Source: Molanna angustata
Taxonomy: Eukaryota; Arthropoda; Insecta; Trichoptera; Molannidae
Assembly (NCBI GenBank): GCA_963576475.1
Contig: OY754973.1
Coordinates: 6,229,052-6,293,051, forward strand
Length of the DNA: 64,000 nt
Reading direction: 5' to 3'
The notes below the pieces were generated by a model that was given only the letters and a program-made list of their open reading frames with translations, made no database searches and was not told where the DNA came from. A program made the position numbers and the translations under genes. Of the stretch, positions 2,543 through 58,378 are shown piece by piece (positions within the stretch are counted from its first letter, which is position 1; each line of letters starts with the position of its first letter).

Positions 2543-3248
2543 GGCGACAGTTTAAATTTCGATAATCGAATTCCCGCGTTCAAATTCCAGAGCCGACCGC
2601 ACAAACAGGCGGCAGTTTTTAAACTGTCTCAAACTGTCTGTTTTCTGTCTTGTTTCTTTTTGTCGCTAGCCGCTTCGTTCACAAAACTCGTTTGACCGAC
2701 TTGTATTCCAATGTATTGGTACGTGACGTACGTGTAATATTAGTAATATACATACATACATAATTATTAACAAAGAATATAATTATTATACTAGTACGTA
2801 TTATAAATAAATTATAATAGTTCAATGTGTCTCGCGACTCGCGGAAAGACTTGACTCGAGAACTCGAGTAAAAATTACTATATCTTCAAAACTCGTGTAG
2901 TTGTATGGTTTGGTACTACATTATAAAATGACGATTGGTTCATTGGTTAAAATTTAAACGTAAAAAGGTCGAAGATCAAACTAGGTCATCTAAGATCATC
3001 GAATCAAGTGTATTATAATATTATGGTTATGTGTTTTATGAAAACAGTTTTGTTTTTCTTTAAAATTAAACGAAGTTATTTCTAAATGCATCGCTTTTCT
3101 ATATTTACTAGAAATTATTATATTTTCATCAATTTTCATCTTAATTTCTTCTGAGCAACTGCGCAAACTAACACACAAATCCCAGTCGTATATTCTGAAT
3201 AAAAAAATCTATATAAATTTAGTTTGTAGGTATCTAAATAGATACAAG
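2543..3248. other. Upstream region of PSAT1, no further gene seen
   Basis: About 700 bp 5' of the PSAT1 start codon. The first 200 bp is relatively GC-rich (GTCGCTAGCCGCTTCG) and probably contains the promoter, but I cannot place a start site. Confidence 0.35.
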
Positions 3249-4156
3249 CTAGATGCATGTAACACTAACACATGAGATCCAACTGTCGATGGTGATAGTA
3301 TGTATAATTGAAGAGAAGAATACGTACCGAACTATAAACATTTTATGATATTTTGTTTTCCATATAAAACATGTAGGTATATAATATGTCAGAATAGGAT
3401 AGAATGAAGGTCAGTCTTTTTTTTCCTACCCAGAATATAAAAACAGCATGATGGTATGCATGTGTATTAAGTATCAAACTATTGAGTCCCCGTAGATATT
3501 GTGTAGTGTAGATATACTTACTGCCTTACCAATTGTATGAAACGAAGTCGTCACTAAATTCAATATTTATCAAAATTGTAAAAAAAATAGTTTGAGCTGT
3601 TCTTGTTTTTTTTTATAGCAAATGAAATTATCTAGTGGGGATTTTTTGGCTTTTTCGATATTTTAAAAATATTTGAAAATAAAGACAGTTAAAAAAATAA
3701 AAGTTTTTCTTTATAAAAAAATGTTTGAGAAACGCTTGAGATATTGTATTTTTCTATATTTATACCTATTTACAGGGTTCTAGCTTATACGGTTATTGAG
3801 ATATATGAAAAAATAAAGTAAAAATTCAAAAGTTGATAACCCCTGACAAAAACAAAAATTCAAAATTCTGAGTATTAAAGTTTTGTAGGCCTGTAACTAG
3901 CTATATATTCCGAAATTTTGAGCTCTGTGAATTGAGCGGATCAAAAGTAATAAGGGGGGGGGGGGACACTCACACACGCACACAGACACACAGACACACT
4001 AAATGTTCTAATCCTAATTCTGAGTAAATCAATATATGGAACATATATATGCTGCGAAGCCTCTAAGTTGGTGTTTTTTTACTTCAAAGTTGGAAAAACT
4101 GTGAAAAATATAGCCCCTGCATACAAGTCTCGCGTATCTTGGCTTGATACTTATGC
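3249..4156 (-). mobile_element. Helitron-like element copy A, 5'-truncated
   Basis: Minus-oriented member of the family best seen at 25642-26623. Its 3' terminus (CTAG, then hairpin and GATCCAACTGTCGAT) is at 3249. It has the shared internal blocks ATTCTGAGTAAATC and TGCTGCGAAGCCTC. It stops at about 4156 before the family's 5' end. A short plus-oriented internal fragment follows at about 4165-4290. It contains a G12 run near 3955 and a CA-rich stretch after it. Confidence 0.7.
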
Positions 4157-4979
4157 CTTTTAGTTAATTTTTTCATATATCCCATAAATCATAAAAGCTA
4201 GAACGCTGAAAATTGGTATAAATCAATAAATAGATAAATACAAAATCTCAAACTAATTATTTAAAAAAAGTGGGAGTTTTTCCAACTTTTTTTATTACCT
4301 ATGAAAAACCATGGGGGTATATGAAAAACATTTTTATATGTCTAGTTGCATGTAACACATGAGATCCAACTGTCGATAGCGATAGTATCTATAGTTGAAG
4401 AATAAGTACCAAACTATAAACCCATAAATACAAATTATTTAATATTTTAAGATATTTGGTTTTCTATACAGCATATGTACCTAGGTATGTATGTTAAGAT
4501 AAGATAGTACGGAGGTCAGTCCTTTGATCCTACCCAGAATATGAAAACAGGATGATGGTATGTATGTATGTTTGGAGATGAGTATCAAACAATTAAGTCT
4601 TCTTAGATATTGTGTGTAGGCGACTGCCATACAATTTGTATGAAACAATGTCGTCACTAAATTCAATTTTTTAAAAAATTGAGATGTGCTAATATAATGT
4701 TAATATTTTTTATAGAAAATTAAATTATCTAGTTGGGGTGTTTCGGCTTTTTTCGATATTTAAAAAAAATGGAAATATATGCAGTTAAACTCATAAATTT
4801 ATCATAAAAAAAATATTTTTCTTAATAAAAAATGCTTTAGAAACCTTGGAATTTTTTCAAAAAAACTAATTTGAAATTTTGTATTTGTCTATGTTTATAC
4901 CAAATTTCAGCGTTCTAGCTTTTATGGTTTCTGAGATACATGGAAAAATAAATCAAAATTTCAAAAGTTGATAACCCCT

Positions 4980-5999: not shown

Positions 6000-6129
6000 G
6001 TGTTATTAGCATGCAAAAAGTCCACTACGCCATACAAAATGTTCCTTCGTACACGCAACTTCGCATCTTGGCTTAATAATGTCGATTCATTCAGATAATT
6101 GAATTCTCATGAACGAATCGACAGTTGGA

Positions 6130-6555
6130 TAAATGTATGTGTTCAACTGCTTACATTTCCAAAGTTTTAAAAATATCGAAAAAACGCCGAAACACCCCAA
6201 CTATATAATTACATCGCAATCATAGTAGTACATCGCAATTTTTTTTACGATTTTTATAAAAATTGAATTTAGTGACGACATCGTTTCATACAATTTGTAA
6301 GGCAGTAAACACCACACTCTCACTCAATAGTTTGATACCTACATAATCTACAAACATACATCATGCTGTTTTCATATTATGGGTGGGAAAACACTGTCCT
6401 CCATACTATCCTATCCTAACATACATACCTACATGTTATGTAAAACGAAATATCTTAAAACATTTATTAATTTGTGTTTATAGTTTGGTACGTATTCTTC
6501 AATTATACATACTATCGCCATCGACAGTTGGATCTCATGTGTTACATGCAACTTG
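6130..6555 (+). mobile_element. Helitron-like element copy C, 3' half
   Basis: Plus-oriented 3' half, abutting the 5' end of copy B head to head. It ends CATGTGTTACATGCAACT with the final CTAG changed to CTTG. Confidence 0.65.
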
Positions 6556-6825
6556 TATAGATGTAAACTTCTGTCGGCGATACAGAAATATCGGGTCCAA
6601 GTTTGTGGAAGCGTATGGGATGGGACTGCTGCAATAGAAGCGACGATGACGTCATGTTTTTGATTAGTTGAAGGTTTCGTAATGCGAAAGGGAGGTGAGC
6701 ATGTTGATCAAAAAATTTATCAAAATTAACGTCATTAAAATCTAACACTGTACATAAAATTGAAGTAAAATATACAAAAATAACTTATTTTTTCTCTATT
6801 TAGACAATTTAATCAGTTAACTTGT

Positions 6826-10150: not shown

Positions 10151-10461
10151 GGTGCCAAGAATAAATTACCCTTCATCAATTTTCACAAATGTATTTATTT
10201 TCTATACTAGCAACATCAATTTTATCTGTCACAGTTTGTTATCTGTCACATTTCACGTTTTAGTGATTAGTATAGGAAATATTGTATTTTTTTATTTTGT
10301 TATCTGAAATATCGTCGTAAATTTAATATATTTAATGAACGTTGAAAAATATACATTGCTCTATTTTGTATTCGATTTTGAAATAATCATTTGATTATAT
10401 GTAATAATAATAATAATATTATTTCAATGATGTATTATGTATTTCCAATAACCTGGTTTAC

Positions 10462-10476
10462 CACGTGACCTCAGTT
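10462..10476 (+). promoter_or_regulatory. MRI1: Candidate MRI1 core promoter (E-box and initiator)
   Basis: The palindromic E-box CACGTG (10462-10467) is followed by TCAGTT (10471-10476), which fits the arthropod initiator consensus, 43 bp before the start codon. Position and consensus only. Confidence 0.3.
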
Positions 10477-10518
10477 TTGTGCTTTTAATATTTGTTTTTG
10501 AAGAAATATTGTATCAAC

Positions 10519-17827
<7,309 letters not shown>

Positions 17828-17952
17828 CAAAATTAATAATGTTATAGCTTGCCTTGTGCCCCTAATATGATTAATTTCTAGATTTTGCTAAAAATATATT
17901 AATATGATACATTTATACACTGTTGATCATGTATATTTTATATATTTTTTAT

Positions 17953-17958
17953 AATAAA
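17953..17958 (+). terminator. MRI1: MRI1 polyadenylation signal AATAAA
   Basis: The first canonical AATAAA after the MRI1 stop codon, 126 bp downstream. Confidence 0.6.
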
Positions 17959-18944
17959 GCATTTGCTAAACATTTTTGATTTTTTATTAGTAAATGTACT
18001 CTTAAATATTAAAGGCTGAAAGGATTTTCCAGTTGAATTACTTACTTACTTTGCGGGTCCGGATCCCAGTCCATGCTACTCAAGTAGGCAGAATTGGATA
18101 TCGCCTTGTCATTCCGGACAGTTCAATTAGTAAGTATACATTTTTTTTATAATTTGTCCTTGCAGCCTTTATAATTAAAAATAACCAAAATATATGTATT
18201 TACGTATTTATCTTCCATAATGTATAAATTATTTAATTTTTTATAGTATCATACCTTCATGATGTTTTATATATTGTATTACATATTTTGAAATTTGAAC
18301 AAAAATAAATCATTGTCTTGAATAAAAAAAATCCATAAAATTTCCATTATTATTATTACTTAAATGGCTCTTGTAACTCTCAAATGGAGGAAAATTGGCC
18401 AGACTCAAGTTTGTTATAAAGTCGTACATTTGTTACTTGCATATTAAATTTCTAAAATAAATAATATGTAGTGGAAGCAAGGGTATTACCGGTCACCTAT
18501 GGGAATAGTTGAATAAAATCTATATTAATAAACATATCTTTATTATATTACACTTATACAAAACTTTCATTATTCTTTTAACAATATCACTTTAATTAAG
18601 ATCAATTCTATAGTTATTTTTGGAATGACCGTTGATTAAAAACAACTGGGTTTGACCGGTAATATCAACACTGGTGGGTAATAGCAGTCAGTTTGCGTAC
18701 AATACCAATCAAGTACGATGTAAACACATTTTGCATATATAAACAAATTACATTTCTGCCCATATGACGTCTTAAAAAGTCCAAAAATGATACATCGAGT
18801 GGCCGAATGCGATGCGAGCTATGGGTGTGAAAATTAAAAAGAATTATGGCTAACTTAGGTATCTATAATTTGTAAAATAGGTTCATTTTTACTAAGTTTT
18901 GCATTACCTGCAAAATATTTCAGCCATTCCACAAAGTAACTCAT

Positions 18945-43616: not shown

Positions 43617-43944
43617 TTATATAACTTAATTCAATGCGGTCAATTTCGGTAACACGTTTAGAATAAAGCTTTTGTTTTTTTTTTCAAATTGTAGTTTTAT
43701 TTTTTCATTCTAAACTAAAATAAACAAATTAGGTAATCCCAGATGAAATAAAATCCATCTTTTTCATCACGTCTCCTTTATTAACTAAGTATGTACAGAT
43801 CTTATTTATTGTTCTTTAATGTAACCGTTTTATTGATTTCAAAAATTTTAAGCGCATTTATTTTACATTAATTTCTCAACGGGTATCGTGTTGTTAAGAA
43901 AATGGTTAATGTGAATTTCGTTGTGACGTTTTTTTTGTTTTTTT

Positions 43945-44232
43945 CGTACCATCACGGTACATATCCCACAATGTAGGATAACTAGTGTCAGATGCGCTGG
44001 TGTGTATTACCTTATAAAATGAAGCACTAAACCTTCGTTTATCCCCCTACACCATTATCGTCTCAAAAAGGTATTGAATTCAGAATGGGTGGTTCACCTA
44101 ATTGGTGTACTATTTGAGATGCTATTTTGCCTGTTGTATTTTCAATTACCCGGCTTTTACGGAACACTTGAAATCGAAGATAATTGAGGGGAGTGGAAAC
44201 ACTATTCCAAGCTGGTGCCTCACAGCAAAGAT
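43945..44232 (-). repeat. Repeat-5 copy, divergent
   Basis: TACCATCACGGTACATATCC, GAATGGGTGGTTCACC, GTTGTATTTTCAATTACCCGG and GGTGCCTCACAGC are all in the family order. Confidence 0.7.
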
Positions 44233-46385: not shown

Positions 46386-46690
46386 CTGGCACATTCATTC
46401 ATTCATTCATTCATACCATCACGGCATATCCCACAATGTGGGGTAACCAGCGAAAGGTGTGCAGGTGTGCATTGCCTTATAAAAGGGAGCACAACAATCT
46501 GTGTATACCCACACACCAGTCTCGTCTCACCTAAAAAGGCACTATATTCAGAATGGGTGGTGAACCTCATTGCTGAACTATGTGAGATGTTATTGTTGCC
46601 TGTTGTATTTTCGATTAGCCGGCTCTTACGGAACACTCGAAAACAATAATAGAAAAGAGTGGAAGCACTATTCTAAGCCGGTGCCTCACA
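46386..46690 (-). repeat. Repeat-5 copy (SINE/LINE-end type, ATTC-repeat tail)
   Basis: A (CATT)n tail at the left, then TACCATCACGGCATATCCCA, through to CGGTGCCTCACAGC. Read on the minus strand it has a fixed 5' end GCTGTGAGGCACCGGC and a simple-repeat 3' tail, the structure of a retroposed element. A Helitron scrap follows at 46698-46755. Confidence 0.7.
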
Positions 46691-47340
46691 GCAAAAGAGC
46701 CCAAAATTTCAGAATATATAAACAGCTATAGGCCTACAAAACTCTTATACTCAGAATTGGCACATTCGTTTGTCACAATTCTTGACGTACTATGAAATTT
46801 AATAGATCATCAAGAATATCAACACTTCAATCTGCGTTATTGTTACTAGGGCTATTGATTAATACGAATCTCCTTATTGTTTTCCTCATCTTCTGCATTT
46901 TTTGAGTCGGCTTTCTTTATGTTTGTCCTCCATGCCTCTCTATTTTGCATCATCGCTTCATCCAGTTGTGACTTTCTCAACTCCTTCTATATACCACTCC
47001 GTCATGTGAGTCTGGGTCAACCTCTCCTTCTCCCGCCTTCCTGTATTTCTAGTGCAGTATGTACTGCATGATCTTCTCTGCCTCATCACATTTCCATATC
47101 ATCTCACTCTTGATTCTGTTAACGTTTCCGTCACTGGGACCGTCTCAAAGCTGCTTCTGATATGTTGGTTTCTCACTCTGTCTAACCTTGTCTTGCCTCC
47201 GGACCACCTAAGCATCTTCATCTCGTTTGTGTAGAGTTTTGATCGTGTACGTTTTTTATAGTCCGGCTTTCGGCGCTATAAATCATTTCATTTACTTTTG
47301 TTTTTATTGGTACACGATTATCACAAAATACTACTGTGAG

Positions 47341-48337
47341 GAATCGAATATTTTTATTATTGCATATGCGCAAACATTGGATTTTTTTCCCTGTCGGGAG
47401 TCAAAGATATTTTTTAACAGATTTTTAATTATCTCAATAGAGACGAAGTTGGAATATTTATTGTAGGAGAACCGGGAAATCAAGGCACCTACAGGGCTTA
47501 CGACCTGTCATCGGCTGGTTTACGTGATCACTTTATGCGCTTGCGCAACGTTCACCAATTATGCCTTTTTTATGAGATCCCTATCAATTCAATTTTGAAA
47601 GTTCTATATATTGTAATACTGAAATTCTTTTCGCTTGAAAATAAGGAATTTTTACTACAGCCATCTATGGGTGAAATTATGAACAACAATCTTATTATTT
47701 TTATTTATTTTGTTGGAACGCCATCTATTGAGAGAATTGGTTTTTTGTAAATAATGAAAGCTACAATTCTTATATCTGAGGTGACAATGCATTTTTCGCA
47801 TAGAAGTCACCCCTGAATTGCGCCAGACTTATAAGGTCATTTTTGTCTTATTTACCTACTTGTACCAATGTGTAAGTAATTACTTACACATTGGTACAAG
47901 TAGGTAAATAAGACAAAAATGACCTTATAAGTCTGGCGCAATTCAGGGGTGACTTCTATGCGAAAAATGCATTGTCACCTCAGATATAAGAATTGTAGCT
48001 TTCATTATTTACAAAAAACCAATTCTCTCAATAGATGGCGTTCCAACAAAATAAATAAAAATAATAAGATTGTTGTTCATAATTTCACCCATAGATGGCT
48101 GTAGTAAAAATTCCTTATTTTCAAGCGAAAAGAATTTCAGTATTACAATATATAGAACTTTCAAAATTGAATTGATAGGGATCTCATAAAAAAGGCATAA
48201 TTGGTGAACGTTGCGCAAGCGCATAAAGTGATCACGTAAACCAGCCGATGACAGGTCGTAAGCCCTGTAGGTGCCTTGATTTCCCGGTTCTCCTACAATA
48301 AATATTCCAACTTCGTCTCTATTGAGATAATTAAAAA
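47341..48337. mobile_element. 997-bp insertion with 11-bp target-site duplication
   Basis: Flanked by ACTACTGTGAG at 47330-47340 and 48338-48348. It consists of an 81-bp single-copy left part plus the palindrome that fills the rest to the right junction. Retroposition by a cut-and-fill endonuclease is implied by the duplication. Confidence 0.85.
47422..48337. repeat. Perfect 916-bp palindrome (458-bp arms, no loop)
   Basis: Symmetric about 47879/47880 (GTAAGTAATTACTTAC). I compared the outer, coding-like and central parts of both arms and found no mismatch. The first break is 47421 against 48338. The identical 71-codon ORFs on opposite strands (47535-47750 and 48009-48224) are a consequence and not evidence of a gene. 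Confidence 0.95.
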
Positions 48338-48479
48338 ACTACTGTGAGGGTTCTCCATTTCTGTCAGGCTACGCTTTTCTGCGGGTGACGTCAGCATCAA
48401 CATTTGCATCCGCTGTGAGCACTGATTCAAGATATTTGAACTCTCTTCGAGTAGTTTTATTTTGTCAGTGTACCTATAT

Positions 48480-54581: not shown

Positions 54582-54824
54582 ATTGTGTTTAACAATTTTT
54601 ATAAAAAATGAATTTAATGACGACATCGTTTCATACAATTTTTAAGGCAGTATACACTATGTACACAATATCTCACTCAATAGTTTGATACCTACTTACA
54701 TACATAATACCATCATGCTGTTTTCATATTCTGGTTAAGAAAAACAGACTGGCCTCCATACTGTCCTATCCTGACATAAATGTTTTATAATAGAAAACAA
54801 AATATCTTAAAATATTTAATTTGT

Positions 54825-55125
54825 TCATTCATTCATTCATTCATACCATCACGGCATATCCCACAATGTGGGGTAACCAGCGAAAGATGTGCGGGTGTGC
54901 ATTGCCATATAAAAGGGAGCACAACATATCTGTGTATACCCACACACCAGTCTCGTCTCACCTAAAAAGGCACTATATTCAGAATGGGTGGTGAACCTCA
55001 TTGCTGAACTATGTGAGATGTTATTGTTTCCTGTTGTATTTTCGATTACCCGGCTCTTACGGGACACTCAAAAACAATAATAGAAAAGAGTGGAAGCACT
55101 ATTCTAAGCCGGTGCCTCACAGCTA
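54825..55125 (-). repeat. Repeat-5 copy at the 3' end of the chimeric insertion
   Basis: Nearly identical to 46386-46690, including the CATT-type tail and the GGTGCCTCACAGC end. Confidence 0.8.
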
Positions 55126-55369
55126 GGTCACCCCAATATATCATGTAGGTATTATTAAATAACTTTGCAATTCAATCAACAAAGTATATTTTTATGTTAA
55201 GATAGACAAACTATTAATGCAGTATGGTGAAGAATGCTTATGTTGTATGAAATATTTTAATAAAAGCAGATAAATTTTGTTTTAAAGAACACGAGAGAAT
55301 TTTGAAAATTTTGACACGTGATATCATATGAAGTAATTTTATGTTATTCATAAAAAGCTAATCATTTCT

Positions 55370-55930
55370 ATGTTCAAGCTCTTTAAATTATAACATGAAA
55401 TCAAATCTACAAAAATTAATGAGAATGTTATCGAAAACTCTAATATTAATGAGAATGTTATTGAAACCCCCAAAATTACCGAGGATTTTATTGAGGACAT
55501 AACGCCTAAGAAGGTAACATTATTAAATAACTCGTAAAAAGAAAACATGCAAACATATATTTAAATAAATATTATCTAATGATACAATTAAGTTATACCA
55601 AAAATCACTTATGTTTTTGTCTAAAATAAATATTGTTTCTTTACAGATATCGTCTGGTTTTCATAATAAATAAAAAAAAACACCGAAGAACAGTAATATG
55701 AATATAAACAAAGAAATAACTAGACAAGTAACTTCAATTGCAGAAGTAGAAATAGAAAATAAAAAAAATATATATATTCGATCCAATTAGAAAACGCTAA
55801 GAAAAAATCACAATACTTAGACTTAGCCAATACAATTGCAGAAAAAGATATGGAACATAAAAGAGAATTACACGAAATAAGTATTGAAATTGCAAAGGAG
55901 TCGCGTAACTTAGATGTTATTGGAATATAA
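55370..55930 (+). pseudogene. Degenerate coding-like segment, unidentified
   Basis: One frame before 55512 reads INENVIENSNINENVIETP and EDITPKK, then a GTAACA donor-like site. A TTTCTTTACAG acceptor-like site is at about 55646. Beyond it NINKEITRQVTSIAEVEI and, in another frame, NTIAEKDMEHKRELHEISIE form a charged, helix-prone stretch. This resembles the C-terminal part of SANT/Myb-like DNA-binding proteins, but the match is weak. Stops and frameshifts are present. Confidence 0.25.
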
Positions 55931-55957
55931 TAAACGTGGAAATTATCTAACCATCTC

Positions 55958-57259
55958 TTGTATGCATCTTTAACCACAGGCAGTAAGAGTTTTACTCCTA
56001 AATATTGGTGGAAAAGGATATTAAATAACAAAGTTGCGGAAGCAACAATTGGAAATACAACCTTTTATGCCACTGAGAATTTAATGTTGATTCAATGTCC
56101 TCAAGGAAATTATTTAGTTTCAAGAGACCATTTATTGATAATATCAGATTTAGCTTCTCAAAGATATTTGCTTAAGCTATATAGTATTATATGTAATAAT
56201 ATGGAAGACTATGATTCTTTTATAGATATAAATACTTTAGACAAATTTTTGCTAAATGGAGATCTCATATTAGAGGAAGCAGGAAACTTAGGATATGAGT
56301 ATATTTATAAAATGGAACCTGCAGCATTAAGCAGATTAGTAGGAGATATTAAAATTGGTTCAGATCCTATTGACAGAAAAACATTTAAAGAAATAATGAG
56401 AGATGCAACAAATAATATAGCAAAAGAATTAAACATTCAAATTCTACACTTAGAAAGAGAAGAACTATTAGACAACATTCAAGACAAACCTCATTTATTG
56501 TCACAATTATACGGACTATATAGAATATGGGGACATCCCACATTAGAGCCCTGTGATGGAGCTATAGCTCTTAAGAAAATAGCAACTTATGTAAGACTAT
56601 CTTGCCAAGAATTAATAGACAAAATTGAATGCAAATTTAAAGAGGAATTCATCTTACGATACATCTCCAAATATAATAAATGGCCCATTATGAATATTGA
56701 TAGATTGATGCCAAATCACATTATTAGATCATGTTATGAAAAACAATTACCTTTTCCCAAAAAACACAGATATTACAATAGACAAAATTTGACATTAATA
56801 TCTTTTGAAAAAACATTTCCTGTGGATCCAAAGTTTGATATCATTGAAATGCTTTCAGACAAATCTATGTCATTATTAACAGATGAACTGATAAAAAAAG
56901 CATTAATGAAGAAAGAGGTGTTGGAAATGCTATAGATAGATCAGTCTTAATCAAATGGATTGAGTCAGATCTGCAAGATCCAGAAGTTTTCTTAAAAGAG
57001 ATAGATATTAATCGGTACAAACACAATGAAAAATCTTTTGGAGTCAAAGAGAAAGAAAGAGAAGGGAAATCCAAACCTAGATTGTTTGGACTTATGACAA
57101 TGTACAAAAGAATGTACATTGTATTAACTGAATCCTTAATTGCAGAGTATTTTGTCCATCTATTTCCTGAAATAACAATGGTGGATGACGAGTTTTCTCT
57201 GGATAAGAAAAGAATGAATTTTACTAAAACTGCTACTACTGACAAACAAACAGAATATC
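55958..57259 (+). pseudogene. Endogenous viral element: rhabdovirus-like polymerase (L) fragment
   Basis: An open frame of about 325 codons (55958-56935), then continued homology in another frame to 57259. Recognisable mononegavirus L features: SRDHLLIISDLASQRY early on, WGHP (residues 191-194 of the first frame) followed by L..CDG, KYNKWP, FPVDPKFD near the end of the first frame. In the second frame there are KEKERE (about 57045-57060), RLFGLMT (57079 on) and FPEITMVDDE. The order and spacing fit the N-terminal third of L up to the start of the palm; catalytic motif C is absent. Broken by one frameshift near 56930 and truncated at both ends; no viral start codon. Homology to rhabdoviruses rather than other mononegaviruses is my best reading. 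Confidence 0.85.
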
Positions 57260-57850
57260 AATATTTAATTTGTGTTTAAGTGTTAATAGTTTTGTACGTA
57301 TTCTTCAGTTATACTTACTATCGCCAACGACAGTTGGATCTCATGTGTTACATGCAACTAGTCTGTGTATTGGTGAATTAATAATTAAGTTGTTACGTAG
57401 ATTCTCAATATGAAATTGTGCATTTTGACGCGAAGCATACCTTGTGTGTGGGTACTACGAATTATATTATTTGAATTATCTCAGGGGAGCTAATAATATG
57501 TATGCTACTCATATAATATTTTGTTTTAGATGTAAAAATAACGTTCTTTATAAATAAATAAATTAGGTAATTATTTTGCACTTGGTTGTGTAAGTATTTT
57601 TTAGTTCTGTTGATTTTATTTTATGTTGTATTGATTTTTTCATTCAATTTTTTTGATTTCTTTGATATTTTTTTAATCATAACGTACAGAAATAAATTAA
57701 AAAATAGTTTATCAAAGAACTTTTTTCTATACAGGTATGAAACTACAAATTTTCACGGACCATAATTTGGGAAAAGATGCTTCAGTTGGTTTATAATGTT
57801 TGTTATGTATGAAGGATGTGTATGTATGTATTAGTGAGCCTAGGTATGTA

Positions 57851-58378
57851 CAGGGTGTACAAGTTTATATTTAGTGGATCGATTAAAAAAAGTAAGCCGT
57901 GTCTCAAAAAAATGTTTATTAATTATTGAAGTACGCAATTTGGGAATTTATTTTTTAAAAATAAACTGTGGACCCTCGCGTTCGCAGCACTCATTTAATC
58001 GAACAGTAAAATTACTTCTCAGTGATGGCTACCATTTCGTGACGGATATTTCCTTTCAAATGCGCCAGGGAAGTCGGTTTACTGGCATAATCATTAGATT
58101 TAATATAACCCCATAGGAAAGAGTCCATAGGGGTTAAATCGAGACTTCGTGGAGGCCAATTTATGTCACCTCTCCAGGAGATCAATTTGCCTGGGAAAAA
58201 TTTACGAACTCGTGGCATAGATGTATTGGACGTGTGTGACGTTGCTCCGTCCTGCTGGAACCATGTTCTTTGGTTATAGCCAGGAAAGTAAGTTTTGCAG
58301 TTCAGGCACCAAGAAGTCGTCTAACATCTCCACATAACCCTCTGAATACAAATATAAACTTTATTTTGAGACACCTTG
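57851..58378 (-). mobile_element. Internally deleted Tc1/mariner-superfamily element (DD41D-like)
   Basis: Flanked by TA on both sides. Inner terminal repeats share AAGTTTATATT in inverse orientation, though the outer bases are imperfect. On the minus strand the 3' end of a transposase remains: QQDGATSHT (second catalytic Asp), then NWPPRSLDLTPMDSFLWGY with a third Asp 41 residues further on, matching the D41D spacing of rosa-type elements. The ORF 58218-58012 ends HEMVAITEK. The N-terminus and first Asp are missing. Confidence 0.75.

Follow-up and report, generated by a model that had tools for sequence, protein, structure and literature searches.

The rhabdovirus-like polymerase fragment described here lies in a 2,435-bp insert within a 64,000-nucleotide stretch of Molanna angustata DNA (the window). 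We are fairly confident that this insert is a 5'-truncated retrocopy, led by a SINE, of a composite already existing on contig 24, and that it was made through a host RNA antisense to the viral polymerase gene L. It most likely records the re-copying of a viral fossil, not the first entry of the virus. The insert and its borders are made up as follows, in window positions:

54811..54824, plus strand: left target-site duplication, AATATTTAATTTGT; exact match, the site being uninterrupted in other copies of the flanking repeat
54825..54844, minus strand: simple-repeat tail at the SINE 3' end, TTCA on plus and TGAA on minus, read from the sequence
54845..55123, minus strand: SINE-like repeat, complete up to the 5' end common to other copies (CACAGC on plus); copies in the window and the genome
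55124..55182, no strand: about 60 bp joined to the SINE 5' end; likewise joined on contigs 24 and 8
55183..55406, plus strand: piece of a DDE_Tnp_4 (Harbinger-like) transposon; L036:5535-5758, 95.5%
55412..55935, plus strand: second piece of the same DDE_Tnp_4 transposon; L036:4331-4869, about 92%
55936..57259, plus strand: rhabdovirus-like L fragment, supported by frames, PF00946, solved L proteins and L copies in the host genome
57260..57273, plus strand: right target-site duplication; exact match, its first two bases, AA, also fitting contig-24 L

The insertion in the window is real and single, since the duplication is exact (54811-54824 and 57260-57273, flanking 2,435 bp inside a repeat copy), the 14-mer has no third exact copy in the 64-kb window, and paralogous sites are uninterrupted. 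When up to one mismatch is allowed, the 14-mer matches five times in the window, against a mean of 0.64 in shuffles. Six other window copies of the flanking repeat were aligned, a copy near 3335-3583 being left out; all six, which are paralogous repeat copies and not an empty allele, are uninterrupted at the site and exceed the occupied copy by three bases. Five were refound by pattern with 1-5 substitutions (6455, 12059 and 26515 on the plus strand; 29390 and 4425 on the minus strand). The first-pass annotation had read the 14-bp duplication around 2,435 bp as the mark of one insertion event, and this reading stands: a single duplication brackets all parts, and unoccupied copies of the flanking repeat hold the site once only, so that the direct repeat is not paired in them. 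The flanking repeat had been called Helitron-like; at a quick look it shows a CTAG end after a small hairpin and an inverted pair, ATCCAACTGTCGAT / ATCGACAGTTGGAT. Two further features of the window may be recorded here. A perfect inverted repeat at 47419-48340, with 461-bp arms that are 100% complementary and have no spacer, is either very recent or a product of assembly, while a frame at 58012-58320 (minus) resembles, by eye, the end of a mariner-like transposase.

The evidence for a pre-existing composite comes from a search of the insert against the whole genome (994,815,102 bases in 131 contigs, with 40 of 3,154 candidates scored). On contig 24, at 11170652-11174304 (minus), the components of the window insert recur in unchanged order and with the same junctions. 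Window intervals 54827-55324, 55321-55975, 55970-56858 and 56918-57268 are collinear there on one strand, and the junctions of the SINE with the 60-bp stretch (at 55123) and of the transposon with L (near 55935) are common to both loci. The two differ by 21 substitutions over 2,287 compared sites, or about 99% identity, in a count that left out the tail, 55936-55975 (beside a 1,047-bp insertion) and 56859-56917 (missing at contig 24). By stretch, substitutions number 1/278 in the SINE, 1/197 and 7/613 in the middle segment, and 8/867 and 4/332 in L; gap events, ends included, number 11. If we assume a lepidopteran rate of 2.9e-9 per site per generation, which may not be that of the host, 0.9% would correspond to some 1.6 million generations, a figure to be taken as a guide only.

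The right-hand ends of the two loci differ. At the window, L is cut by the target duplication, AA being common to template and target. At contig 24, the L homology extends about 580 bp past this breakpoint, to about position 10424 of c24rc, in frame with a GDNQ motif. There, the match to the L copies of contigs 22 and 23 ends while those copies continue, and the truncated L end directly abuts a tandem array of units of about 1,562 bp. The array itself (c24rc about 10427-18750; L021/L023) consists of units 98-99% alike, with sub-units of about 450 bp.

Each locus also holds sequence which the other does not. Stretches of 215 bp and 1,047 bp are found at contig 24 only; where searched, both consist mostly of multi-copy sequence, and the longer is flanked by TTAACC. 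We considered whether the window lacks the 1,047-bp stretch because it was a spliced intron, since its ends also fit GT..AG on the opposite strand, but set this aside because about 800 of the roughly 910 bp searched are multi-copy repeat. Contig 24 lacks 59 bp (window 56859-56917) which are kept in the window and on contigs 22 and 23, as well as 10 bp further on in L. The 59-bp stretch is gone at contig 24 only, and the window copy therefore left before at least that loss. Conversely, 21 bp and 3 bp of the middle segment are present at contig 24 and missing in the window; either the window copy lost them or contig 24 gained them, and the window is therefore not simply the older state throughout.

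The direction evidence thus fits contig 24 as the parent, or else as a sister copy that outlasted a parent now lost. Against its parentage we counted the 21 bp and 3 bp missing from the window, as well as the lack of a target duplication around the contig-24 composite, where exact and near matches revealed none. The same observations, together with the fact that each locus holds sequence missing in the other, would suit an arrangement in which both copies are daughters of a third, unseen composite locus. The genome search scored 40 of 3,154 candidates, which leaves room for such a locus; no third composite was found among those 40, however, and L extends further to the right at contig 24 than in the window. 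We regard a third locus as rather improbable.

We return to contig 24 as the parent and to how its composite may have been copied. The insert shows the features of target-primed reverse transcription, namely a target-site duplication with uninterrupted sites elsewhere, a 3' tail, and 5' truncation. A locus at which the same upstream sequence is joined to the SINE, as is required for SINE-led 5' transduction, is present on contig 24; that contig 24 was the actual source locus is what we infer. A host RNA would have been transcribed from it antisense to L, through transposon debris, and ending in the SINE tail. LINE machinery serving the SINE, to which the tail and the duplication point, would then have made a nick at the target site and, priming from the tail, reverse-transcribed the RNA in the direction of its 5' end. 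Copying would have halted within L, leaving out the last 580 bp or so of the homology present at contig 24, and the product would have been joined there through a two-base overlap. An intron-like stretch of the transposon frame would have been retained, as the RNA would run antisense. Contig 24 would later have gained two insertions and lost the 59 bp.

The left end of the insert agrees with its earlier description as a retroposed repeat with a simple-repeat tail, for a TTCA-type tail is followed by a recurrent SINE-like repeat, and the start of the insert at that tail (54825) fits priming there. The repeat is about 300 bp long and recurs in the window at 46395-46692 (97%) and 43943-44226 (79%). 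At the contig-24 locus the tail is shorter and irregular; other SINE copies have similar tails. Among 16 genomic copies fetched, both ends were found by motif in nine, and end motifs were absent in seven. Five of the nine two-ended copies have a repeat of at least 9 bp beside the tail and no more than five bases from the 5' end (one of these repeats is T-rich); the other four have no such repeat of at least 9 bp, nor does the window copy at 46395. The family therefore displays the many copies, fixed 5' end and abutting duplications of a SINE. Neither ARAGORN nor Rfam at its gathering threshold returned a tRNA or 5S match in 54825-55123.

The existence of the contig-24 composite bears most directly on the mechanism first proposed for the window, in which reverse transcription began on SINE RNA and switched to the RNA of the middle segment and then to viral genomic RNA at the window site itself. 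One duplication does surround all parts, and the strand relation, with the sense of the SINE on the minus strand and the L frame on the plus strand as was first described, fits negative-sense RNA. LINE template jumps yielding a tripartite chimera with 14-bp repeats have, moreover, been published (PMC2104539). Nevertheless, contig 24 holds the parts already joined in like manner, at about 99% identity and contiguous apart from the two later insertions, with an L that runs past the window breakpoint. Unless the contig-24 locus is misassembled, identical switches would have had to happen twice, which is not credible, and we reject template switching at the window as highly improbable. Viral RNA is not needed as a template here, and the proposal that the insert is a record of viral endogenisation gives way to one of secondary copying of an existing endogenous element. 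Duplication of contig-24 sequence at the DNA level, without RNA, would keep the intron-like stretch, but antisense RNA would keep it equally, and a left boundary at the SINE tail, a 14-bp duplication bracketing the unit and the absence of any match at the window place to the contig-24 flank past the tail make such an event very unlikely indeed.

The middle segment had been described as unidentified. It does lie between the SINE and L, as was stated, but most of it is a DDE_Tnp_4 transposon with many genomic copies: bases 623-1125 of the query gave at least 16 genome matches beyond contig 24 and the window among the 40 of 3,154 candidates scored. The full element, of about 6 kb (L036:2640-8653), has DDE_Tnp_4 frames (1.8e-23) and may belong to the PIF-Harbinger superfamily; a Myb-like frame reached only 0.078, below the cut-off. 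Two fetched copies are 99.5% alike, and matches occur on many contigs. Internal units at 318-bp spacing were also seen in this element. Relative to the full element, the order of the two pieces in the insert is swapped, and the second (55412-55935) appears by eye to carry the degraded terminus of a transposon frame, along with a stretch resembling an intron.

The SINE and the adjoining 60 bp recur on contig 8 (L053, 4692243-4696588), where both, together with about 37 bp more, are bracketed by a 10-bp repeat, AATGTGACAG; SINE and 60 bp can therefore move as a unit. A separate insertion of the SINE beside the middle segment was considered and set aside: neither in the window nor at contig 24 does a duplication abut the SINE 5' end, and on contig 8 the SINE, the 60 bp and the additional 37 bp or so share their own 10-bp repeat.

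The right end of the insert is, as had been recognised, a fragment of viral L. Its frame is broken into two overlapping frames, 55934-56935 and 56887-57279, which match PF00946 at 1.5e-36 and 4.4e-21; the start of L is uncertain, homology to the L copies of contigs 22 and 23 beginning at 55967-55970. For both pieces the best solved relative by sequence is 6ueb; the VSV L chain 5a22 ranks second for one piece, fourth for the other. Judged by these matches, the fragment is homologous to mononegaviral L and is rhabdovirus-like. A protein search over 1,468 candidates of limited length gave five relatives, including one from Parnassius mnemosyne (37%). Six peptide patterns from the L piece found no match in IMG/VR, a search which reaches close relatives only.

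Further L copies occur in the genome, one on contig 22 and four within about 18 kb on contig 23, with a 74-79% DNA match to the insert. Long open partial L frames of 574-973 aa were observed on these contigs (L032:4848-7280, minus; L033:5709-8630; L034:4923-6914; L035:899-2623, minus, and 2810-4738). One contig-23 copy contains a long TA array (L033 about 6115-6680) that leaves its frame open and is translated as a run of IY. When the lineages of contig 22, contig 23 and the window are compared, three of the four contig-23 copies being taken in, pairwise dN is 0.07-0.12 and dS is saturated or above 4. This saturation of synonymous sites suggests that the three lineages had already parted as viruses and that each entered the host on its own. 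Among themselves, the three contig-23 copies show dN of about 0.006 and dS of 0.006-0.011 (ratios 0.54-1.01), values in keeping with recent duplication and near-neutral change; that their frames are long and open is therefore no evidence of host use.

How the contig-24 composite arose is a separate question. No target duplication was found around it, its L ends at a tandem array, and the SINE with its 60 bp can, judging by contig 8, travel as one piece; the template-switch idea therefore survives as a hypothesis for contig 24, and not for the window. Contig 24 might then be the primary endogenisation: LINE machinery would have primed on SINE RNA extended by some 60 bases and jumped first to antisense transposon RNA, then to RNA of the viral genome. 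Later, germ-line transcription of the locus antisense to L, perhaps yielding a small-RNA precursor, would have supplied the RNA from which it was retroposed in one piece. We offer this sequence of events tentatively and consider it unlikely as a whole. If true, the window copy would be a fossil trace of a viral element having been transcribed antisense in the germ line.

The retrocopy reading of the window insert carries an implication of its own, since, if it is true, germ-line transcription of the parent locus ran antisense to the viral gene. That one genome contains both a longer composite and what appears to be its daughter argues that SINE/LINE machinery can multiply a non-retroviral viral fossil after its entry. 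A duplication and a retroelement tail beside viral sequence therefore do not, by themselves, record entry.

Read-through retroposition is of a known kind, and non-LTR retrotransposons such as SVA carry out 5' transduction, in which upstream sequence is carried by a read-through RNA ending in the retroelement tail. Chimeric LINE products and endogenous mononegaviral elements are likewise already known. What appears to be new is the SINE-led retrocopy of a viral element alongside a longer source-like locus, a combination which we did not find described in the titles and abstract openings of the literature searched. The insert resembles 5' transduction by SVA (an element treated in PMC12593883) in that upstream sequence is carried along with a retroelement tail, and departs from it in that a short SINE-like repeat serves as the mobile tail and the cargo is an antisense endogenous viral fragment. 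The Magnaporthe grisea LINE chimera, attributed to template jumps (PMC2104539), similarly joins three components, one of them a SINE, and shows 14-bp direct repeats and a presumed role for LINE machinery; here, in contrast, the composite pre-exists elsewhere and one part is viral. Endogenous bornavirus-like L in bats, as summarised in PMC4865735, offers a parallel for L-derived open frames in a host genome, such as those on contigs 22 and 23, whereas the window copy is broken and the comparison of contigs 22 and 23 gives host use no support. Finally, like the non-retroviral endogenous viral elements which are reported to occur in animals (PMC2987831), the insert places a virus-derived polymerase fragment in a host chromosome, but unlike them the window copy is best read as a second-generation retrocopy.
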